64,000 nt of DNA, from contig DATIKU010000053.1 of NCBI GenBank assembly GCA_035477215.1, positions 62,001-126,000 of the forward strand, written 5' to 3'. This document shows, in pieces, positions 16,839-28,502 of this stretch. Numbering within the stretch: the first letter of the stretch is position 1; the number at the start of each line of letters is the position of its first letter. Under the pieces are notes generated by a model, which had not been told where the DNA came from, did no database searches, and saw only the letters and a list, made by a program, of their open reading frames with translations. The DNA is from Spirochaetota bacterium. Its GTDB lineage: Bacteria; Spirochaetota; UBA4802; UBA5368. The translations under genes were made by a program, and so were the position numbers.

Positions 16839-17867
16839 ATGCGATCAATCCCACGCTTCGTCCGCTGTGCTCTGCCATTCGCGCTCCTCCTCGGCGCAAT
16901 CGGCTGCCGTAAGGGCGAGCTCATTACCTTCAACCGGCCGATGCTGGGCACCATCATTACCATTACGATTATCGCAGATTCCAGCGAGGCAGGGGTCAGA
17001 GCCTCGGAAGCGGCATTTAACGAGATTGCCCGGATAGAGGCCCTGATGAGTCCGCGGCTGGCCGGGAGCGACGTCGCGCGGCTGAACCGCGATGGCGGTC
17101 GCATCCACGTCACCGTTTCGGACGAGACCTTCGCGCTGATCGAAAAGTCCATCGAGGTGTCGCACCGGACCGACGGCGCCTTCGACATTAGCTTCGCCTC
17201 GCTCGGCCACCTCTGGAATCTGGCAAGCGACGACTTCCGCCCGCCGGGGCACCGCGAGACCGCGCGCCTCCTTCCGCTGGTCGACTACCGGAAGATCACA
17301 CTGCATCCGGAATCGCGCCGGGTCTCTTTCGCCCTGCCGGGGATGAGGGTCGGCCTCGGCGGAATAGCGAAGGGATACGCCATAGCCCGGGCGGTCGGGG
17401 CCCTCCGCCGGGAAGGGGTCAGAGCCTCGATAGTCGACGCGGGGGGTGATCTCCAGGTGACCGGCGACAAGTTCGGCGAGCCATGGCGGGTAGGCCTTAT
17501 GCATCCGCGCAAAAAAGAAATCCTCCTCACAATAGCGGCCCGCGACGGCGATTCGGTCGTGACGAGCGGTGATTACGAGCGATTCGCCTTCTTCAATGGA
17601 GAGCGATATCATCATATAATCGATCCCAAGACGGGCTTCCCGGCCCGGGGGCTGGCATCGGTGACGGTACTGTGCTCTGACCCCGTGCTGGCCGACGCCT
17701 ACGCCACGGCCCTTTTCGTGATGGGAGGGGTCAGAGCCCGCGAATTCGCCCTTGCTCACCCGGAGATAAAGGTCATTCTTATCGACGAGGACATGCGTAT
17801 CAGCGCATCGAGGGAGCTCGAAGACCGGGTTGGGCCGTCCGGCCGCGCAAAAATCGAGTGGTTTTAG
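16839..17867 (+). CDS. apbE: FAD:protein FMN transferase (ApbE), lipoprotein
   Basis: Periplasmic Mg2+-dependent enzyme that attaches FMN to Thr of Nqr/Rnf-type flavoproteins. 342 residues with a good lipobox (GAIGC, Cys23). Family landmarks: RTDGAFDISFASLGHLW, GLGGIAKGYAIARA, IVDAGGDLQVTG, TSGDYERFAFFNGERYHHII with DPKTGFP, and ADAYATALFVMG. Odd feature: the 12-mer GGGGTCAGAGCC occurs three times in the same codon phase, each giving Gly-Val-Arg-Ala at residues 52, 193 and 297, plus one inverted copy at about residue 279 (Cys-Ser-Asp-Pro). All core motifs survive, so the gene looks functional. No rnf or nqr genes are in the window. Confidence 0.93.
   Translation: MRSIPRFVRCALPFALLLGAIGCRKGELITFNRPMLGTIITITIIADSSEAGVRASEAAFNEIARIEALMSPRLAGSDVARLNRDGGRIHVTVSDETFALIEKSIEVSHRTDGAFDISFASLGHLWNLASDDFRPPGHRETARLLPLVDYRKITLHPESRRVSFALPGMRVGLGGIAKGYAIARAVGALRREGVRASIVDAGGDLQVTGDKFGEPWRVGLMHPRKKEILLTIAARDGDSVVTSGDYERFAFFNGERYHHIIDPKTGFPARGLASVTVLCSDPVLADAYATALFVMGGVRAREFALAHPEIKVILIDEDMRISASRELEDRVGPSGRAKIEWF
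16992..17003 (+). repeat. REP-like 12-mer, copy 1 (in apbE)
   Basis: GGGGTCAGAGCC in codon phase, encoding GVRA at residues 52-55 in a variable helix of ApbE; flanked by CA upstream and TCGG downstream. Confidence 0.75.
17415..17426 (+). repeat. REP-like 12-mer, copy 2 (in apbE)
   Basis: GGGGTCAGAGCC in the same codon phase as copy 1, encoding GVRA at 193-196 just before the conserved IVDAGGD strand. It shares the following TCG with copy 1. Confidence 0.75.
17674..17684 (-). repeat. REP-like motif, inverted copy 3 (in apbE)
   Basis: GCTCTGACCCC on the plus strand, an 11-base inverted match to the motif. With copy 4, 42 bases downstream, it forms an 11-base inverted pair able to fold as a stem. 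Confidence 0.65.
17727..17738 (+). repeat. REP-like 12-mer, copy 4 (in apbE)
   Basis: GGGGTCAGAGCC in the same codon phase again (GVRA at 297-300), just after the ALFVMG motif. It pairs with the inverted copy 3. Confidence 0.75.
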
Positions 17868-17873
17868 CGGGAG

Positions 17874-17885
17874 GGGGTCAGAGCC
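17874..17885 (+). repeat. REP-like 12-mer, copy 5 (after apbE)
   Basis: GGGGTCAGAGCC a few bases after the apbE stop, between apbE and the convergent 1.46-kb-residue-class lipoprotein gene. Confidence 0.75.
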
Positions 17886-17928: not shown

Positions 17929-20900
17929 TCAAGGATTGGCCCTGACATCATAGAATATGTCCGCTTCGGTCGGCGTGGTGGCGTTTCGGTAATCCTTCCA
18001 AAGGAACAATCCGCCATAAGGAGTGCCACCATCATTATAGTACAGTCCCTTTAATGAAAGTTCGTCATCATCCCACGACGAAACAATACCGACCACTACG
18101 CCGTCATCATCGGCAACGTCGTCAAACCAGTTGAGCGTCCAGGCGCCGGCGTTGGGGATGACGGCCTGGGCCACTATGACGTAGCCGACCGAGTAATAAT
18201 ACCTGTTATCCATCCAGCTTACAACGGCGCCATTGAGCCCGTCGCTGGCGATCGAGAGGTTGGAGACATAGGAACCGGTACCGGCGACATCCAGAAGTGT
18301 TCCAAAATTCGCCTGCACGCCGGTGGCCGCGGTAAATTTTTCCGCGTAAATGCGCCCGAGACTGTCCGCATAGGCGACGACGGGATTGTTCGATGTATCG
18401 AAGGTAATGGCCGCGTCGACCGCCCCCGCGAAGCTGATCGGGTTCGTCCCCCAATCGGCCAGGGCTCCAGTGGCACTGTTGTAGCGCGCGAGATAGATGT
18501 TTGCGCCGTCGCGGTAGAGCACCAGGAAACGGAAATTCGCGTTATCAGGAGCGGCCCTGACGTCGATAATCTCCGCGGCGGTTCCATTGTACAACAGCAG
18601 CCCCCGACCACCGTTAGCTGCGGCACCAAGAACCACGGTTCCGAAGGAATTCACCCGTTTGTAATAGATATTACCGTCCGTATTGGACTCAAAAATCACA
18701 CGGGCGCCTCCGTTATCGCCATTGGCGTGGAGAAGCTTGACGTTATCCATCACATCCCCGGCGGTATAGAGCGTTGATGTGGAGTATACCGATCCGTTCC
18801 CCATGTTTATTACGGCACCGAGGATGCTGCCGCCGCTCTCCCATGCGAAGAAGAGTCGCTGACGATAAATGTAATACCGCTGCGTAGCGGCCCATCCGGG
18901 AATGGCGGCACGAAGCGTTATCTGGGTGGCGGAGTCGACGGACTGGACTATGCCGACGGTGTTATTGCCCACGATCTTCACCACATCGCCGGGATGGACG
19001 CGGTAGGCGGCCAGCTGGAAGTTGGTGAGCACATCGCCGTCGGTGAACTGGTTGCCGGCAACCGCGGAAATGGTTCCCGTGGCCACCAGCGGTTCCGTGC
19101 TCGCGAAAACGAGATAGTCCTCGTTACCGGTATCGAATATATTCTTATTCAGCGTAAGCTGAGTCGGCGAATCCCTGCTGACCACAACCGCGAACCGGTT
19201 GTCGCTGATGTTGTATACCAGGTCGCCGTTCTCCACGCCGGCAACATCAAAAGCGGCACCCGCCGACACGAGAAGCCCGGCACTCAGGGCCGAAGCCTTG
19301 CCGTATTTGAGCCACGTCTCCGCGGGCGTGACGAACCTGAGAAGCCAGTAAAGATCCGCGTCGGACATGAAGGCGGCGGCGCCGTTTATATCGAGCGCGC
19401 GCTCCCTCACGGCAAAAGTGCCCGTAGTGACCCGCGCGATAGACGTGTCGGTGACGTTTACCAGCACGTCATTATTGACCACACCGGTCGTGACGAAAGT
19501 CGCATTGTCGTCATAGAGCGGATTGGCGGGGGGAGTGTCGGCCGTACCGGTGATTGTCCGGTAATTGTACACATCGACCGTTACGTTATCACCTACGTTA
19601 AATGTTGCCAGATCGACCAGTATCCGATAGAAGGGATCGACGGGACTGGCGGCGTGTGTGGTGCAATAATTATTATAAATACTATAGTTTTCGGCCCCAA
19701 GACTGAATATCGGGTCGGAAAGGTTAAGCACGCGGGTCGAGGACGCGGAAACGAAAGCGCTGTCGGGGGTGGTAAGATTATAGACGAGCGCGTTTGCCGC
19801 GATCGCGCTCCAGTCGGCGGTATAATCGACGAGTGGATTGGCGCCGAAAGCATTTTCGGTTCCGTTATCAACAATTGGAGGATCTTCGACGATCATATAG
19901 CCTTCGCCGGCGTCGAAATTAAGACCCGGGATCGTGAGCTCCGTAGCTGAAACCACCACGGTAACCTGACCATACGTATTATCGTTGATATTCGCCACCC
20001 AGTCCCCGGGCACGACCAAGGCCGTCCAATCATCAAGATTGGTACTATCGATCAGACTGTCGGCGCTTGCTTCCGCCGTTCCTTCGTCAATCAACCGGTA
20101 AATGTCGTACTGGTCTCCCGTATGGGGGAAGATATCGGCGTCAAGCGCGAGCATGTCCGTATTCACATCAGTAACGCGGGCATAGCTGATTGGAGGACCA
20201 GCGCTGATATTCACGACCACGTCATTGACCGCGACACCCAGTGCCGTAAAATCAACGTCCGGATCGTACAGCACCACGGGTTCCTCGGCCCCGCTGTAAT
20301 CGGCCGCCATGTTTACCCCGTTCAGGGAATTGATATATACGTAGGTCGCACCCGAATGAATCACATCCCCGACCCCCATCCAGGCCGGCGGCGCATAATT
20401 ATGTTCGGTAATGACCCTGTTGGCCGTGCTCGTTTGCGTTGGAGGCGTAACATTCATGGCGTGATCATCGGTCAGGAAACTGGTGAAGCTGGTAACCCCA
20501 TCGGCGATCCGGTACACGTTCCCGGTGGTGACCACCCCCGCGCTCTGGCCGAGCACATGCCTGAAATTCGTCGAGCGCGTCGCCACCGCTCCCACGTGAT
20601 CGGTGACGTCCATAATACGATCGTCGTTCTGTATAACCGCATTTCTCAGATTGACGTCAAAATCATAAAATGGATTAGCCGGGATGTTGTGGGTAGACCC
20701 GACGCCGGTGCCGTTGTGAATCCGCGTTACGAAACCATTATAAACATTGTTATCGAGACCGGCCCCATAGCGATAATACATGGGAATCGCCGACGCATCC
20801 TGGTAACCGGCCGTATGGCCGAACGTATTCCCGAAACCGGCGGCGGTATTATCGCTCCAGTAGGTGCTGAAACCGAGGCCCGTCGCCCCCCCGGTAACAT

Positions 20901-22305
20901 ATTTCACGTAAAATCCGCTCGCACCATCCTCGAGAACGACGAACACACCACCGTAGCCATCCGGGAACAGCCGCGGGTCGCTCAATCCGTGGGCGTTATC
21001 GATAAGCTGGCCCGGGTGCCAGTTTACGTTGGGAACACCGGTTGCGTTGATATAGGTTGCGCGCACGCTGGTCCCATCCACCCAGGCCACATAGGCCGTT
21101 GCATCCGTGTTCTGATGAACGGTGAACTCGGAGATGTTTGCCGCCGGCGGGCCGGCCGCGACGGCATTGAGACGTTCGTCATTAATGGCGGGATCGGTAT
21201 CGTTTGCCGTCATGAAATTGCCGGTCTGCGTCACTATCGTCGCGTGATCGATGATGAAGTAGTACCTGGTTGCCGTCGTTAAGCCCGTAATATCCGCGTA
21301 GTGCACCGTCGGGGTCCCCGCCTCCGCCTTGGTGAAGCCGTAAACCGTGGTGAGCCCATAGTTAACGGTAAAACCGGTAGCCGGGCGCGTTGTTGTCCAG
21401 TTGATCCTGACTGAATTCTGCGTGACTTCCGTAAGCCATACCGAGCCGATCGTAATGGGACCGCCCGGATTGGGGTCGGCCTCCACGGTGAAGGTCCAGG
21501 TGTTATTGACGCTTACCACCAGGTCACGAAGTCCCGTATCTCTGATCCCCGTTCCGGGAGTGTCATCCAGGTCGACCGTATAGACCTGCGCATAGGTGAG
21601 AGTATTCAGTGGGAGATACCATGTTTTCTGATCGAGGCTGAAATAGGGGGCTACCGACGCGGCCGCCGGAGCGATGGTAAAGGTGGCGGCGGTCACGTTC
21701 TGAACCTCTTTATTGAACGATACCACCACATAGCCCACGCCCCGGCTGTACGGCCCGGCACCAACCGGATACCGGGAGGTGGCGATGACGACCGGATCAT
21801 AGTCACCAGAATCATCATCACCGGTGGTGAACTCCGCGGTATCGTTGCCGGGTATACCGGTATCAAGCCCACCGGAATCACGAATTGCCGCAGGATCGAC
21901 CTCAATGGTGTAGGGAGTTGAATATGCGAGATTTCCAGTAAATGCTATCCGCACAGCCCTATAATATCCGGAACCGTCCGCAGCAAAGCCGGTTACCGAA
22001 GCGAACCCCGGATTGCCCGGAATGTCCACGCTCGCTGGGGTAATATCAGCGACATCATAAATCGGTTTTGAAAATATTATGACAACGTCCGTGTCGATCG
22101 GAAACCGGTCGGTAGCGGGAAGCGGCGCGTCCGGATAGATGGACTCAACCTGCAGAAACTCGGTCCCCGGGCTCGAGCCCGGAACGGTCCCTCCCGTTGC
22201 GCTGAGGTCGACGTTCGGCGCTTCGGGCGCGCAGGCGTGGAAAAGCAGCGCCATGACGGCCGGGAGCATGAAGGATAGCGCCGGACGGTATCGGAGTGTT
22301 CGCAT
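17929..22305 (-). CDS. giant lipoprotein with Ig-like and FN3 domains
   Basis: About 1458 residues from ATG 22305 (MRTLRYRP), chosen because AAAGGGGGGTGAT lies just upstream; an ATG at 22335 is unsupported. The signal peptide ends LLFHAC, a spirochaete-like lipobox. Two SbsA/Big_5-type Ig-like domains (about 55-160 and 170-275: DTDVVIIFSKPI, RGVGYVVVSFNKEV) precede an FN3-like domain (about 285-365). The middle (about 640-1140) holds at least six related modules of the form GD-x-V-x-N-x-x-D-N ... T-x-L-x-L ... Y-x-I-Y. The end resembles propeller-like repeats. Likely a surface protein; ligand unknown. Confidence 0.82.
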   Translation of the reverse strand: MRTLRYRPALSFMLPAVMALLFHACAPEAPNVDLSATGGTVPGSSPGTEFLQVESIYPDAPLPATDRFPIDTDVVIIFSKPIYDVADITPASVDIPGNPGFASVTGFAADGSGYYRAVRIAFTGNLAYSTPYTIEVDPAAIRDSGGLDTGIPGNDTAEFTTGDDDSGDYDPVVIATSRYPVGAGPYSRGVGYVVVSFNKEVQNVTAATFTIAPAAASVAPYFSLDQKTWYLPLNTLTYAQVYTVDLDDTPGTGIRDTGLRDLVVSVNNTWTFTVEADPNPGGPITIGSVWLTEVTQNSVRINWTTTRPATGFTVNYGLTTVYGFTKAEAGTPTVHYADITGLTTATRYYFIIDHATIVTQTGNFMTANDTDPAINDERLNAVAAGPPAANISEFTVHQNTDATAYVAWVDGTSVRATYINATGVPNVNWHPGQLIDNAHGLSDPRLFPDGYGGVFVVLEDGASGFYVKYVTGGATGLGFSTYWSDNTAAGFGNTFGHTAGYQDASAIPMYYRYGAGLDNNVYNGFVTRIHNGTGVGSTHNIPANPFYDFDVNLRNAVIQNDDRIMDVTDHVGAVATRSTNFRHVLGQSAGVVTTGNVYRIADGVTSFTSFLTDDHAMNVTPPTQTSTANRVITEHNYAPPAWMGVGDVIHSGATYVYINSLNGVNMAADYSGAEEPVVLYDPDVDFTALGVAVNDVVVNISAGPPISYARVTDVNTDMLALDADIFPHTGDQYDIYRLIDEGTAEASADSLIDSTNLDDWTALVVPGDWVANINDNTYGQVTVVVSATELTIPGLNFDAGEGYMIVEDPPIVDNGTENAFGANPLVDYTADWSAIAANALVYNLTTPDSAFVSASSTRVLNLSDPIFSLGAENYSIYNNYCTTHAASPVDPFYRILVDLATFNVGDNVTVDVYNYRTITGTADTPPANPLYDDNATFVTTGVVNNDVLVNVTDTSIARVTTGTFAVRERALDINGAAAFMSDADLYWLLRFVTPAETWLKYGKASALSAGLLVSAGAAFDVAGVENGDLVYNISDNRFAVVVSRDSPTQLTLNKNIFDTGNEDYLVFASTEPLVATGTISAVAGNQFTDGDVLTNFQLAAYRVHPGDVVKIVGNNTVGIVQSVDSATQITLRAAIPGWAATQRYYIYRQRLFFAWESGGSILGAVINMGNGSVYSTSTLYTAGDVMDNVKLLHANGDNGGARVIFESNTDGNIYYKRVNSFGTVVLGAAANGGRGLLLYNGTAAEIIDVRAAPDNANFRFLVLYRDGANIYLARYNSATGALADWGTNPISFAGAVDAAITFDTSNNPVVAYADSLGRIYAEKFTAATGVQANFGTLLDVAGTGSYVSNLSIASDGLNGAVVSWMDNRYYYSVGYVIVAQAVIPNAGAWTLNWFDDVADDDGVVVGIVSSWDDDELSLKGLYYNDGGTPYGGLFLWKDYRNATTPTEADIFYDVRANP

Positions 22306-22501
22306 CACATCACCCCCCTTTGAGCGGGGAAACATCGAATTTCCGTTTTTTTGCAGGGGGCATACAGTTTTTCTTTACATTTTAATCGTTGCGGCATGTA
22401 TTTATCAATGTATGCTGCATATCGGCACAGAATCAACATACACCTTCTCGATCCTATATATTACAGAAGAAATCGGGATTAAGGCAATAATAATTTAGAC
22501 C
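22306..22501. promoter_or_regulatory. divergent intergenic region
   Basis: AT-rich 196-base gap between two divergently read secreted-protein genes. It includes T-runs near 22347 and an ATCCTATATATTAC stretch near 22450. No clear paired -35/-10 boxes could be fixed. Confidence 0.3.
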
Positions 22502-25015
22502 ATGCTCCGTAAAAAAATTAGATTTCTCCCGCTGCTGCTCATCACCGCCCTTTCTCTGCTGTTGACAGAGAAAGCGGGTCGTGGAACCATCACCTCGATC
22601 ATCCTCACGCCGGCCAACCCGACCACCATGTCGAACACCCTGGGGTATTACCTGGCGGGCAAGGCATATACCTTTACGATAAACGTGGTCGATCCGGATG
22701 TCACCGCCTGGAACCAGATCACCGATGCCAGAATGACTATCGCTAACACAACCAATATTGTAGTAAGAAACACGGTCGCCTTCGGCTTCGGAGCATCTCC
22801 TCTCGTTGCCGATACGCCATTCGCAGTAACGGTGGACTCGGGGACCGTGGATGCCGCCGGCCTGGTCACCGCCGGCAGCACCTATAACAACTTTACCGTG
22901 CGATTCACCGTAACATTCAGATGGGACACCCCCGCATCCGCCTGGGCCGCCGCCCGAAATGTCATCGGATCCGCCACCACCAACAATCCGGCCGTGAATA
23001 CCCTCACCGACACCCGCACGGTATCGTACGGCGTCGTTTCCACCATTCGGATTGTCGGCTTCGCCCAGGACGGCGACGCGGCCGACGGGCGAGTAAACCC
23101 CTGGCACACGGCGTTCAACGTAACCGGTACCATCGCATACAACATACCGGGCGCGGTCGCCGCCGACGCGGTGCATCTGGTCGCCGACGCGGGTGTGGGC
23201 GAGTACACCGCCCCCGGCTCCACGCTGTATCGATCCGGCTTCATCACGCCCCACGTCGACGCAACGCCGGCCGCTCTCAGTATTCCCGTAAGCGCCGAAT
23301 GGTTCAATTCCCTGGGATGGGTCACCGCGCGCGGCAACCACACCTGGACGGTACGTGTCGCCATGAATACGGCAGGCGGCCCTGAAACCTCCGTGAATAC
23401 CCTTGCCATCAACTGCGACCGCATCCGGGTGACCAATATTGAGTTTTTCGGTGGGGGCGGCGTCAATCCGCCTCCGCGCTACTACCGCAGTGTAAACCTG
23501 CCCGGCACGCAGGTACGGGTGACCGCCCAGCTCGAGAATGCCGGCACGGGAATGGTCGGAAACACGACTATCAGGATATCCGACAGCGCCGGAACCCCCA
23601 ACACCTACGACGTGGTAATCGCCAACGGCGCCACTCAGGGCGTTATCGATATGAGCGCGAACTATCCGGCGGTCCCCGGCGACATCCCCGCAAACGACAC
23701 GACGGTACTCTCGTACAGCGCGGTGCGCGTTTTCGGCGGAGCCTATGACGGCGACACGGCCGCGGCCGAGGGTCAGGACGATTTTGGAAGTATTACGCAG
23801 GCCGCGTTAGGAACGTATCAGATTTATTGGGATCATGAGGATCCACCGGGGGCAAACGCCGGAGGGTTTACCACCTGGGTCAACCAGCAAACCACTGCGA
23901 CTTCACTTGAATTAACCTGGACTCCCATCAATCCACTGGCAAATGATGACCACGACTTTTATTCATACAGAATCTATTACCGGGAAGATACAACCGTTCC
24001 ATGGATTATGATTGATCGCAACACTGCAAATTACGGGCCTCCCGCCGGAACATTCAGACTGGATCTCATCACAACCGGCACCGCAGCAATCCAGGGATTG
24101 GTGCCACTCACTATGTATGATTATTTTGTTTCAGCGGTTGACGTTTTTGGAAATGAGATTTATACATTATTTCCCGGGAGCATCATTACCGGCCCCACAG
24201 GTGCGGACTGGTGGGGCGAAATACAGACACAACCACTGACCATTCTTTCTGAAATTACCGACGGAGTAACAATCTTCCAAGATAATTCTTTCACTCTCAA
24301 CCCCCTTGCATCAGCACGCCCAGTTCGCGACACAGCGATCCGCGTAAAATTAACAATATCCGGAACCGCCATTACCTTGCCAGAAACAGTTAATTTAATA
24401 GTGGCACAAGATGGAGCGACAGACCTAATAAGTGGAGGCACGGTAAATCCCATCCCCGTTGAACCTTGGTATCGGATTAACTGTGCGAAGAGCGGCCCGA
24501 ACATCTGGACTGCTCATATTCCCGACACTAACACTTTAATAACAATTGGCACGGATGTGCGCTTTGTGATCGAAATGATACATGGTGCATCCATCACATA
24601 TGCGGATCATAATTCCGAACTCGAAATTCCTGCTGGCGTTCCCCCTGTAACTCCAAATGACTATGAATGGACATTCTCGGTTATCACCCCCACCACCTTC
24701 CAGCCCTGGCCCACGCGCATCCTGAACAATGTCATTACCGACAAGGATCCGGTGGCCTACCCGGCCTATTATCTCTCTGAGGACGCCTACGTCACCATCA
24801 AGGCCTTCGACATCAAGGGACGCCCCGTCGCCACCCTGCTCGATAACGCCTTCCGCAAAGGCGGGCAGAACATCAAGGAGGGCGGCTGGCGCGGCGACAA
24901 CAAGGCAAACCGAAAGCTCGGCGTGGGTCTTTATTACATCCAGATAGAGGCGAAGGCCGTGTCGAGCGGCAAGGTTATCCTCAATTCCTTCCAGAAGGTG
25001 GTCATGGCGCGTTGA
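22502..25015 (+). CDS. secreted FN3 protein with FlgD/sorting-type C-terminus
   Basis: 837 residues. Signal peptide (FLPLLLITALSLLLTEKAGRG), then about 430 residues of Ala/Thr/Asn-rich beta-type repeats. An FN3-like domain at about 450-560 contains YSYRIYYREDTTVPW and LVPLTMYDYFVSAVDVFGNE. The C-terminal 90 residues form a FlgD-Ig/type-A-sorting-like domain (YLSEDAYVTIKAFDIKGRPV, GGWRGDNKANRK, GVGLYYIQIEA). Base composition drops clearly from about 23.8 to 24.65 kb, then recovers for the C-terminal domain, suggesting a mosaic. No Shine-Dalgarno is obvious. Probably exported or surface-attached. Confidence 0.78.
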   Translation: MLRKKIRFLPLLLITALSLLLTEKAGRGTITSIILTPANPTTMSNTLGYYLAGKAYTFTINVVDPDVTAWNQITDARMTIANTTNIVVRNTVAFGFGASPLVADTPFAVTVDSGTVDAAGLVTAGSTYNNFTVRFTVTFRWDTPASAWAAARNVIGSATTNNPAVNTLTDTRTVSYGVVSTIRIVGFAQDGDAADGRVNPWHTAFNVTGTIAYNIPGAVAADAVHLVADAGVGEYTAPGSTLYRSGFITPHVDATPAALSIPVSAEWFNSLGWVTARGNHTWTVRVAMNTAGGPETSVNTLAINCDRIRVTNIEFFGGGGVNPPPRYYRSVNLPGTQVRVTAQLENAGTGMVGNTTIRISDSAGTPNTYDVVIANGATQGVIDMSANYPAVPGDIPANDTTVLSYSAVRVFGGAYDGDTAAAEGQDDFGSITQAALGTYQIYWDHEDPPGANAGGFTTWVNQQTTATSLELTWTPINPLANDDHDFYSYRIYYREDTTVPWIMIDRNTANYGPPAGTFRLDLITTGTAAIQGLVPLTMYDYFVSAVDVFGNEIYTLFPGSIITGPTGADWWGEIQTQPLTILSEITDGVTIFQDNSFTLNPLASARPVRDTAIRVKLTISGTAITLPETVNLIVAQDGATDLISGGTVNPIPVEPWYRINCAKSGPNIWTAHIPDTNTLITIGTDVRFVIEMIHGASITYADHNSELEIPAGVPPVTPNDYEWTFSVITPTTFQPWPTRILNNVITDKDPVAYPAYYLSEDAYVTIKAFDIKGRPVATLLDNAFRKGGQNIKEGGWRGDNKANRKLGVGLYYIQIEAKAVSSGKVILNSFQKVVMAR

Positions 25016-25031: not shown

Positions 25032-25056
25032 GGGGTCAGAGCCGAGGGGTCAGAGC
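25032..25056 (+). repeat. REP-like motif, copies 6 and 7 (tandem)
   Basis: Two direct copies, 25032-25043 (GGGGTCAGAGCC) and 25046-25056 (GGGGTCAGAGC), separated by GA, directly after the upstream gene's stop codon. Confidence 0.8.
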
Positions 25057-25106
25057 ATTAAAAGATTACTCCCAATTGCCATAAGCCAACATAAAGGGGA
25101 CATCGA

Positions 25107-25118
25107 GGGGTCAGAGCC
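25107..25118 (+). repeat. REP-like 12-mer, copy 8
   Basis: GGGGTCAGAGCC preceded by CGA as in copies 6 and 7. The bases just before it read AAGGGGACATC, a second short motif that recurs inverted near 26625-26637. Confidence 0.75.
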
Positions 25119-25157: not shown

Positions 25158-25195
25158 GGGGTCAGAGCATTTTTTTAAAAAAAATGCTCTGACCC
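25158..25195. repeat. REP-like inverted pair, copies 9 and 10
   Basis: The motif and its inverse are joined by a T7/A8 run, making a perfect 37-base palindrome at 25159-25195 (18-base arms, single A at the centre). It lies 80 bases before the RAYT gene. It could be a BIME-like substrate of the transposase or a bidirectional terminator. Confidence 0.8.
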
Positions 25196-25274
25196 TTCAG
25201 AAAGTTTTAACTTCGCGACCTCCAAAAACGTATCTATTCTAGAACCTCATTAAGATACGTTAAAGGAGTGTCAC

Positions 25275-25865
25275 ATGGCCCGTAAAACCCGTATCCAGCA
25301 GGAAAACCTCACATACCATATAACCTCCCGCTGTATCGAATGGCGGGCGATGATGGAGCTTGACCTTTTTAAGCAGATTTTAATTGAAGTATTGGGCCAG
25401 ACGCAGGAAAAATACGATTTCGAGCTTTCCGCATACCAGATAATGGATAACCATATTCACATAGTAATCAGGACAATCCCGGGCGGTGCACCTATTTCGA
25501 AAATCGTTCAGTATATTAAGTCCCGCTTTGCCGAAAAATACAACCGGCTGACCCTACGAATAGGCCCGTTCTGGAATGAACGATACCACGACACCATTAT
25601 CGAGCACGCGGACAATCCCGAATACTACCTCCTGTGGTTGCTCTGGTATCTCGCCTTCAATCCGGTCCGGAGCAAAACCACGGACAGCCCGCGGAAATAC
25701 CTGTATTCCAGCATACATTCATATCTCGAAACTGGCAAACGGACCCCAGTGAGAGTCGATTTGCACCGGTATTTTATGCAGTTGGGAAAGACCGTCGAGG
25801 AAAGGCTGAAAAGATTTCTCGTCTACGAGGACACGTACCGCAGGCGCCTGGCGATAATCATTTAA
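25275..25865 (+). CDS. REP-associated tyrosine transposase (RAYT, Y1 family)
   Basis: 196 residues, single-domain Y1/IS200-like HUH nuclease. The metal-binding H-x-H is at 60-62 within YQIMDNHIHIVI, and the C-terminal WYLAFNPVRS (about 124-133) corresponds to the helix that carries the catalytic Tyr. AAAGGAG lies six bases before the ATG. RAYTs are domesticated single-copy relatives of IS200 transposases that act on REP sequences; here thirteen copies of one short motif surround the gene and none is seen elsewhere. No flanking IS ends or target duplications are visible, fitting a RAYT rather than a complete IS. Confidence 0.9.
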   Translation: MARKTRIQQENLTYHITSRCIEWRAMMELDLFKQILIEVLGQTQEKYDFELSAYQIMDNHIHIVIRTIPGGAPISKIVQYIKSRFAEKYNRLTLRIGPFWNERYHDTIIEHADNPEYYLLWLLWYLAFNPVRSKTTDSPRKYLYSSIHSYLETGKRTPVRVDLHRYFMQLGKTVEERLKRFLVYEDTYRRRLAIII

Positions 25866-25953
25866 CACTAACGGCTGGATTAATCCGCATGATGTAATAA
25901 TCGAAAGGGTGTGCTTTCCAAAAATCAGGACGAAACAACCGCTCGCCCCTCCC

Positions 25954-26434
25954 CTAATCATAGACCCATCCCCGCCTTAAACCAGGCAGGTTTAGCTCCT
26001 CCACAACCTCGGAGAACTCCCCCCGGAGACGGTTCTTCCAAGATTAGGGTGATTCCTGATCGCCGGCCTCGGATAATACTGCGACATAAGCGAGATGTGT
26101 ACCGATGAAGACAGCTCCTCCGCAATAGCACGAAATATGGCTCTGACCCCTGATTTAAGTAATGCATCCCGGTTGCCTCTTGCTGCATGCCACTGAATTC
26201 CTGCTTATCTGATAATTCTGACAAAATATACACCGAAGATTGCAGTGTTCATAAAATACGCTGAATATTCCCGTCGATAACCGGCCCGTCCCCTTTATGC
26301 AAACATATCGATGTAACCGCAAATAAACCATCGACTCTACAGTACCCTCCGCCGGCCGAACGTATCGCCCCGCACCCCCTCGCGCAGAGGCTGTATGGCG
26401 AACGCTCGCCATAATACTGAATGCCATTACACAT
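25954..26434 (-). pseudogene. radical SAM protein remnant, internally deleted
   Basis: The N-terminal piece (about 26434-26165) reads YGERSPYSLCARGCGAIRS, then SICLHKGDGPVIDG, then after a frameshift YEHCNLRCIFCQNYQISRN with the radical SAM CxxxCxxC. The C-terminal piece (about 26138-25954) reads RAIAEELSSSVHISLMSQYY and, after a one-base loss in a G6 run, EFSEVVEELNLPGLRRGWVY then stop. The middle, normally over 100 residues, is missing, and the REP-like motif sits exactly at the join (26139-26150). The gene is dead unless the frameshifts are errors. Confidence 0.75.
26139..26150 (-). repeat. REP-like 12-mer, copy 11 (at deletion join)
   Basis: GGCTCTGACCCC on the plus strand, i.e. the motif on the coding strand of the radical SAM remnant, located at the join of its N- and C-terminal pieces. 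Confidence 0.8.
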
Positions 26435-27013: not shown

Positions 27014-27160
27014 TCACCTGATAAAAAAGCGATCCCCATTACTGTAAAGGAATTCCTCCTCCACCAGTTCCGCAAGCGCCGTGCGTACCGCGTGGGAGTC
27101 GAAGCCGATTAGCGCGGTTAACGCCGGTGCCGTAATGCCGGAATTGCCGACGACTCAAGC

Positions 27161-27172
27161 GGGGTCAGAGCC
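27161..27172 (+). repeat. REP-like 12-mer, copy 12 (at mutY join)
   Basis: On the mutY coding strand it reads GGCTCTGACCCC, giving Glu-Ala-Leu-Thr-Pro in that frame, exactly where the large internal deletion begins. Confidence 0.8.
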
Positions 27173-27277
27173 TCCGAGCGGATGTCCGGAAAAGCCGTAA
27201 TAAACTCGTCGAACTTCTTCGCGACCCTGTCCGACTGCGTCTGCTGGAGCATGATTTCGGATGCAAGTACATGATAA

Positions 27278-27289
27278 GGGGTCAGAGCC
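27278..27289 (+). repeat. REP-like 12-mer, copy 13 (in mutY)
   Basis: Inserted between YYARHGK and PYHVLASE, replacing the roughly nine residues (RDLPWR-type) found in intact MutY and bringing in a stop codon. Confidence 0.8.
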
Positions 27290-27428
27290 TCACTTCCCAT
27301 GCCGCGCATAGTACCTATACACAAGCCCCCTGAAGGCCGAGATCGCCTCCGCATCCAGGACCCTGTCACGGACAATCCCCGCCAGTATGCTTTCATCCTC
27401 GATATTGATTTCGTGTCGCATCCCTTCC

Positions 27429-28502
27429 CTAAACGTTGAACCTGAAGCTTATGATATCGCCGTCTTCAACTATGTACTCCCTGCCCATTACATGAAACCG
27501 CCCGGCTTTTTTTACCGCATCCTCGCTTTTCAACTCGCGAATATCCGGATATTTCATCACCTCGGCCCGGATGAATCCGCGCTGCATGTCCGTGTGAATG
27601 GCGCCGGCCGCCTCCGGCGCGCCGGATCCCGCCCTGATCAGCCATTGCCTTACTTCGTCATCACCCACGGTAAAAAAGGAAATAAGGCCGAGCGAGCGCA
27701 TGCACAGCCGCGAAAGAAGGTTAACCGCCGGCTCCCCGATTCCCGCTTCCCTCATAAACTCGGCCCGCTCCTCCGCGGACTCCAGCGCGGCGATCTGTGA
27801 CTCGAGTTCCGCGGAAATCTGCATGACCTCCATTCCGTAATCGCGATACCGGTCCGTCATGCGCGCCACCGCGTCGCCGCTTGAAATGTCCGACTCGGAG
27901 ACGTTCAGCGCGAGTATCATTTTTTTCAGAGTAATAAAGGGATAGCTTGCTATCAGCCTGCGATCGTCCTCCTCGATTTCGAGCAGGCGCAGCGGCAGGT
28001 TCTTTTCGAGGTGCCCGCGGAACCGGCCGAGAATGGCCTCCTCCCGCCGGGCATGCTCTTCCATACCCTTCTTTTTTGCTTTCTCAAGCCGTTCGAATCT
28101 TTTTTCGATAAAGAGAAGATCGTGCAGGATGAGCTCCGCGTTCACCGAATCGACGTCGCGTTCGGCACTGACGCTGCCGCTCACATGATACACCGCATCA
28201 TTATCGAAAGCCCTCACCACATGGCAGAGTGCGTCGACATCGGCGATATCCTTGAACACAGCACCCTCCCTGATGGATGCCGCCTCGAGCCTGGGGAGAA
28301 GGTCGATGTTGATGCGCGCACGGACGGTTTTCTTGGGATTGTAAAGGCCTGCCAGCACATCAAACCGCGGGTCGAATATCTCAGCCACCCCCGTCATGCT
28401 TTTTGACGCGTCTGACCCCGAATGCGATGACTTCATTCCGGCGAGCAGTTGAAATAACTTCTTTTTGCCCGTCTGAGGTAATCCTATGATCCCGACTTTC
28501 AT
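27429..28502 (-). CDS. YchF/Obg-type P-loop protein, degenerate GTPase motifs
   Basis: 357 residues from ATG 28502 (CAGGAAACGG upstream; the frame is open to 28658 without support). It has the overall YchF order: N-terminal P-loop domain, helical insert (about 130-200), NVSE at the G4-like position, and a C-terminal TGS/DUF933 domain ending YIVEDGDIISFRFNV. G1 reads GLPQTGKKK, with Lys where YchF has Ser/Thr, and the G3 D-x-x-G is DLLP with the usual switch II Gly-rich loop lost. Nucleotide hydrolysis is doubtful. Followed at once by the mutY remnant. Confidence 0.82.
   Translation of the reverse strand: MKVGIIGLPQTGKKKLFQLLAGMKSSHSGSDASKSMTGVAEIFDPRFDVLAGLYNPKKTVRARINIDLLPRLEAASIREGAVFKDIADVDALCHVVRAFDNDAVYHVSGSVSAERDVDSVNAELILHDLLFIEKRFERLEKAKKKGMEEHARREEAILGRFRGHLEKNLPLRLLEIEEDDRRLIASYPFITLKKMILALNVSESDISSGDAVARMTDRYRDYGMEVMQISAELESQIAALESAEERAEFMREAGIGEPAVNLLSRLCMRSLGLISFFTVGDDEVRQWLIRAGSGAPEAAGAIHTDMQRGFIRAEVMKYPDIRELKSEDAVKKAGRFHVMGREYIVEDGDIISFRFNV

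Follow-up and report, generated by a model that had tools for sequence, protein, structure and literature searches.

Motif copies in the apbE gene

The apbE gene of this spirochaete (16839..17867, plus strand), predicted to encode an FAD:protein FMN transferase (PF02424, E = 1.6e-79), contains the same 12-nucleotide sequence, GGGGTCAGAGCC, three times, which raises the question how one DNA word came to spell the same four residues at three places in a protein, and what keeps it exact. The three copies (16992..17003, 17415..17426 and 17727..17738, plus strand) are exact and, as noted in the initial annotation of this DNA, all lie on codon boundaries of the apbE frame, reading GGG GTC AGA GCC, or GVRA, at intervals of 423 and 312 nucleotides, both multiples of three. 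An inverted 11-mer (17674..17684, minus strand), read on the plus strand as (T)GC TCT GAC CCC and translated as CSDP, pairs with the 17727 copy over 11 bases, as also described there, and this inverted pair delimits a unit of 64 nt (17674..17737). Together with a direct copy that starts 6 nt past the stop codon (17874..17885, plus strand), five copies of the motif are clustered within about 0.9 kb. The closest named homologues of this ApbE come from two Spirochaetes bacterium MAGs (Prado230 and QR_Bin.4).

The window, that is, the entire 64,000-nt stretch of DNA analyzed here, contains 16 matches to the motif with at most two mismatches, compared to a mean of 4.84 and a maximum of 10 in 100 shuffles, and the whole source genome (3.57 Mb) contains 24 exact 11-mers (17 in the plus and 7 in the minus orientation) versus a single one for the reversed control. 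Given that the window count exceeds that in every shuffle, and given the 24 to 1 ratio in the genome, the abundance of the motif is not a chance effect.

Origin of the apbE copies by substitution

Matches to apbE were found in 53 of the 59 related genomes, and the ApbE alignment included all 30 loci that were returned. GVRA is present at all three places in five of these genes, four from the source genus (G000, G001, G003 and G004) and one from a second, sister genus of the same family (G006); another genome, G002, is fragmentary and gave no apbE match. At 14 of the 15 sites, the codons are GGG GTC AGA GCC, and the fifteenth site ends with GCA, so that the close relatives share identical codons, not the varied ones by which the initial annotation would have recognized ancestral protein sequence. 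The inverted SDP copy is present in all five genes, and, in all five genomes, a motif copy lies no more than 10 nt past the apbE stop codon, in the direct orientation in four of them and inverted in one.

The other 25 of the 30 homologues, including those of G005 and G007 from the same family, contain different residues in the GVRA columns, and 24, 25 and 25 of these 25, respectively, are ungapped at the three sites. Because the motif-free homologues fill these columns with other residues and without gaps, an origin by substitution, not insertion, is indicated. Furthermore, these homologues resemble the motif more at the three sites (6.67, 5.96 and 7.24 mismatches on average) than at in-frame 12-mers generally (8.65), as expected if near-matches were completed. 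Judging from the alignment, the apbE copies arose by nucleotide substitution at near-matching sites, and, most simply, these substitutions would date from the common ancestor, before the two genera split.

The interpretation given in the initial annotation thus holds in part. A dispersed DNA element that dictates the local protein sequence is supported, and the homologue alignment proposed there as a check identifies the GVRA columns as replacements of existing codons that leave the length of the gene unchanged. In contrast, the copies are older than the split of the two genera and so are not recent events in the source genome, and their common phase cannot be taken as a sign of insertion followed by the removal of out-of-frame events, given that other genes carry the motif in other frames, where it reads SDP, ALTP or GSE and is evidently tolerated by the respective proteins. 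One of the six reading frames of the motif yields a stop codon.

Codon freezing within the motif

We compared codon use inside the motif with that in the rest of apbE, as had also been proposed, and found a sharp difference. Among the 4-fold and 6-fold degenerate codons that specify the same amino acid in all five genes, 13 of 14 are invariant within the motif and its inverted copy, compared to 7 of 83 elsewhere (p = 2e-10), and pairwise identity at 4-fold sites outside the motif is only 0.38-0.58. Arginine is encoded by AGA in 15 of 15 cases within the motif versus 1 of 139 outside. As the protein is blind to differences between AGA and other arginine codons and to synonymous bases in general, the freezing acts on the DNA and not on the protein: it is as a DNA sequence that the motif has been kept exact since its origin in apbE.

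Frozen motif codons were detected in three further genes (p of about 0.003-0.004 for each, in tests on 3 or 4 genomes per gene), the loci compared being 14 of the 24 returned for a NirB-like oxidoreductase, 15 of 24 for an aspartate-aminotransferase-like gene and 10 of 24 for a pflX-like radical SAM gene. The oxidoreductase encodes GVRA in all three genomes of the genus in which the gene spans the site, and not in G006. The aminotransferase contains an ALTP site and a 9-mer GVR site in all three of the genomes compared from the genus, both missing from G006; the four residues of the first site are already encoded in the outgroups G006 and G007, by other codons, such that the differences are silent only. 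In the pflX-like gene, the first site is present in all four genomes, including G006, and the second one in 2 of 3 within the genus but not in G006. Within G005, 7 of the 28 copies, at 5 places, are exact also in G007, in a comparison of motif-centred sets in which only shared copies can be found (48 of the 50 copies from G007 were used).

Several other coding occurrences were observed. A 922-aa ORF of G005 contains motif copies 36 bases apart, read as ALTP, that are common to G007 (L295, 2416-2498; L312, 2042-2124). In two genomes of another family, the motif occupies a GSDP site of a protease-like gene, which we take to be htrA (L304, 3613; L305, 3988), and at position 1964 of L304 it is found at the third apbE site in a different frame (GSEQ).

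The motif surrounds RAYT genes

Downstream of apbE, the gene at 25275..25865 (plus strand) encodes, according to its matches to PF01797 (E = 2.2e-13) and NF047646 (81.5 bits, with a cut-off of 80), a predicted Y1 HUH transposase of the domesticated kind known as REP-associated tyrosine transposase (RAYT, or TnpA-REP). RAYTs are HUH transposases with a single catalytic tyrosine (Tyr-1) that act on single-stranded DNA. The interval between the two genes (17929-25015) is occupied by two very long genes (1468 and 837 aa), which are found in the same order in G004.

Motif copies that, like the RAYT gene and the copy past the apbE stop codon, do not figure in the initial annotation of the apbE motif are located around the RAYT gene at 25032, 25046, 25107, 25158, 26139 (minus strand), 27161 and 27278. 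The first three form an upstream group (25032..25118, plus strand), followed by an inverted pair (25158..25196) that is predicted to fold, about 80-117 nt upstream of the gene, into a hairpin (-18.8 kcal/mol, z = -8.3); altogether, the 8-mer core of the motif occurs five times in the 400 nt upstream of the gene and once in the 500 nt downstream. Two gene remnants, both on the minus strand, adjoin the RAYT gene: a decayed pflX-like radical SAM gene (25903..26434), with one exact motif (26140-26150, minus strand) beside a deletion, and a decayed mutY gene (27017..27460), with two exact copies, at 27161 and 27278, that translate as ALTP. The motif in pflX is separated from one edge of the deletion by about 44 nt and from the other by about 10 nt; in mutY, a first deletion stops about 8 nt short of a motif, and a second one begins about 7 nt beyond a motif. 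These three uncontrolled cases are suggestive of breakage near the motif. Genome-wide, 17 of the 24 copies are no farther than 8.3 kb from a RAYT gene, of which two were found in the source genome, and the 10 kb on either side of both genes make up 1.2% of that genome.

The same association is apparent across the 59 related genomes. With RAYT presence defined as a match better than 1e-20 and motif presence as at least 10 copies, 32 genomes have both, 21 have neither, and 3 + 3 are discordant (Fisher's exact test, 6e-10), and the 8-mer core is found no more than 400 nt upstream in 23 of 30 RAYT loci, compared to none of the 30 for the reversed control. The motif is thus found around RAYT genes, and it is abundant mainly in genomes that have one. 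The discordant genomes are G003, G019 and G036, which have the motif with no or a weak RAYT, and G013, G022 and G037, which have a RAYT with one or no motif copy. Some of these count against a link to RAYT, namely, G019, with 20 copies and no RAYT detected, G036, with 12 copies and a weak RAYT, and G013 and G037, with RAYTs present and the motif absent. The same can be said of the contig of G006 that carries apbE and pflX, on which no RAYT match was found and yet the copies persist. RAYT genes without the core motif (L100, L101, L105 and L113) have different, related words at a similar upstream place, for example, TCTCTGACACC in G013. A dispersed variant motif co-evolving with the RAYT of G013 was considered and rejected, given that the variant word occurs only at that RAYT (2 copies).

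Exactness, location and possible mobility of the copies

In the six genomes of family f1, we counted 234 exact and 200 one-mismatch copies, with 231 one-mismatch copies for the control, so that, summed over these genomes, the exact copies are not accompanied by a halo of decaying ones; in G006 alone, the corresponding one-mismatch counts are 30 against 15. In another five genomes of the order (G008, G012, G016, G017 and G035), exact copies number 664 and one-mismatch copies 523, compared to a control of 133, an excess which implies that decay or variants exist there. G008 by itself has no clear one-mismatch excess (42 against 39); the many one-mismatch copies in G012, G016, G017 and G035 (families f6 and f7) count against the interpretation favored below. 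The fetched loci contain 221 exact and 38 one-mismatch copies, a ratio that is biased because these loci were mostly picked for holding the motif.

The copy number reaches at most 168 in any of the 59 genomes. According to our own codon-usage ORF script, 103 of 151 copies lie outside predicted ORFs, in loci chosen for holding the motif. Exact copies are also present in spacers and decayed genes, and the frames used in intact genes are those that the protein could take. In G008, there are two tandem arrays of six copies each with a 19-base period (C22:18-123 and C70:67384-67489). A role at the RNA level was set aside because the motif is present on both strands of genes. Nor do the data support a lagging-strand signature: the orientation of the motif agrees with GC skew in 25 loci and disagrees in 33, and where the skew exceeds 0.03, the tendency (7 versus 19) is opposite to that expected.

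Two duplications may reflect mobility. In G001, a second copy of the 64-nt unit of apbE, 90.6% identical, is located about 1.25 kb downstream, with a match that stops at the motif borders (an alternative, longer match adds a few nt), and an AbiEii/DUF6036-type nucleotidyltransferase gene lies between the two units (L115, 6401-7171). In G003, a 109-nt duplicate of the 3' end of apbE terminates at a motif, and an insert just downstream of apbE contains a nucleotidyltransferase-like gene with a weaker match to NTP_transf_5/DUF6036 (L127, 6629-7093). Both duplicates, two cases in all, fit motif-guided copying as in REPINs.

What may keep the motif exact

On balance, and with somewhat better than even confidence, we favor the interpretation that GGGGTCAGAGC(C/A) is the cognate recognition word of the resident RAYT family, a stripped-down REP that is maintained at the DNA level. 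The RAYT would nick or bind the motif as single-stranded DNA, recombination starting at the motif would favor motif-bearing strands, and perfect copies might then re-write or outcompete imperfect ones, by analogy with the molecular drive of uptake sequences. Exactness would be kept either by such recombination or by selection for RAYT sites, and selection acting directly on RAYT binding, site by site, would predict the same pattern. The bolder proposition is that a domesticated HUH transposase runs an insertion-free sequence drive, overwriting near-matching 11-mers in the neighborhood of its gene and correcting mutants, with GVRA, SDP and ALTP frozen in host proteins as a result; we consider this a tentative possibility and would not bet on it.

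About as doubtful is the reading of the motif as a protein-binding site, for regulation, chromosome organization or titration of the RAYT, with each copy under purifying selection on the cell. Strong site-by-site selection would have codon freezing and missing one-mismatch copies as its outcome, but it is hard to credit for every copy when some lie in decayed genes and others in spacer arrays of changing number, and the consensus of such families is usually more relaxed, as discussed in the relevant part of PMC1626085.

Slightly less plausible is a USS/DUS-type uptake sequence, spread and repaired by biased import and homologous recombination, to which the RAYT would be incidental. Substitution origin and an excess of perfect copies are hallmarks published for USS (PMC1626085, in the part that treats their origin), and some copies, in G005, reside in core genes with no detected RAYT anywhere near. 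Against this stand the low copy number and the clustering, both within apbE and in the vicinity of RAYT genes. ComEC (PF03772) is encoded in 56 of the 59 genomes, and, because these include motif-free ones, its presence is uninformative on uptake.

The two remaining explanations are refuted by the apbE data. REP-like insertions of which only the in-frame ones survived have precedents in tnpAREP and other genes (as far as described in PMC6006769), but at the three apbE sites, the ungapped columns, filled with other residues in motif-free homologues, make such insertions most improbable. A requirement of the protein for GVRA at these places, with the shared codons an ancestral coincidence, accounts for its presence in all five motif-bearing relatives but is virtually ruled out by the frozen synonymous positions and AGA usage, which are confined to the motif, and by the other residues in homologues beyond the two genera.

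What sets this motif apart is its shortness, which allows each of its bases to be traced through coding sequence, with codon degeneracy as an internal clock. Proteins of core metabolism carry residues set by a process that operates on DNA, and, if the drive reading is true, host proteins were rewritten to motif-encoded residues and remained frozen for the age of genera.

Comparison with REP, uptake sequences and other repeats

For REP sequences, we followed the definition in the relevant section of PMC8266576, according to which the way they spread is unsettled. As in REP/RAYT systems (REPtrons and REPINs), the motif flanks a RAYT gene, is dispersed and forms inverted pairs, and is mostly intergenic; the duplicated inverted-pair unit of G001 looks like a single REPIN-like copying event. 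Unlike in REP, the core is an 11-mer, many copies are intragenic and derive from substitution, and family f1 has no excess of degenerate copies. The GT[AG]G foot of REP is missing, with no fixed tetranucleotide in the 12 nt before or the 14 nt after 214 copies, and so is a palindrome of 20-50 nt per copy of the REP type: the three single apbE copies fold weakly (-0.5 to -4.3 kcal/mol), and strong hairpins are formed by inverted motif pairs only. With neither a GTAG foot nor a palindrome of its own, the motif is not a canonical REP. In the limited literature collection that we searched, there was no description of DNA-level freezing of substituted motif copies beside a RAYT, nor of this 11-mer.

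The elements of Rickettsia known as palindromic elements are likewise selfish repeats within protein genes, but they are long in-frame insertions as opposed to 12-nt substitutions. The closest coding precedent among RAYT-linked repeats is the in-frame REP insertions reported inside tnpAREP of subclass 2.4 and in other genes (PMC6006769, in its account of that subclass), which resemble the present case in that the frame is kept, and differ from it in that here the gene has kept its length, with codons common to two genera.

Uptake sequences, i.e., USS of Pasteurellaceae and DUS of Neisseriaceae, are 9-12-mers, many of them in coding sequence, with inverted pairs in spacers (relevant parts of PMC1626085, PMC2346458 and PMC2397512), and are marked by origin through substitution, not insertion, and by perfect copies exceeding those one base off (same part of PMC1626085). 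The motif shares both features, having arisen by substitution within existing genes and having more perfect than one-mismatch copies in f1 as well as in the five other genomes. It differs in number, with tens to fewer than 200 copies (24 in the source genome) compared to hundreds to thousands of USS/DUS, and in being clustered and tied to RAYT. The motif thus resembles REP in its partner and clustering, and uptake sequences in its origin and exactness; because it pairs a RAYT partner, as REPs do, with the substitution mode and the exactness of uptake sequences, the mode of spread becomes testable.
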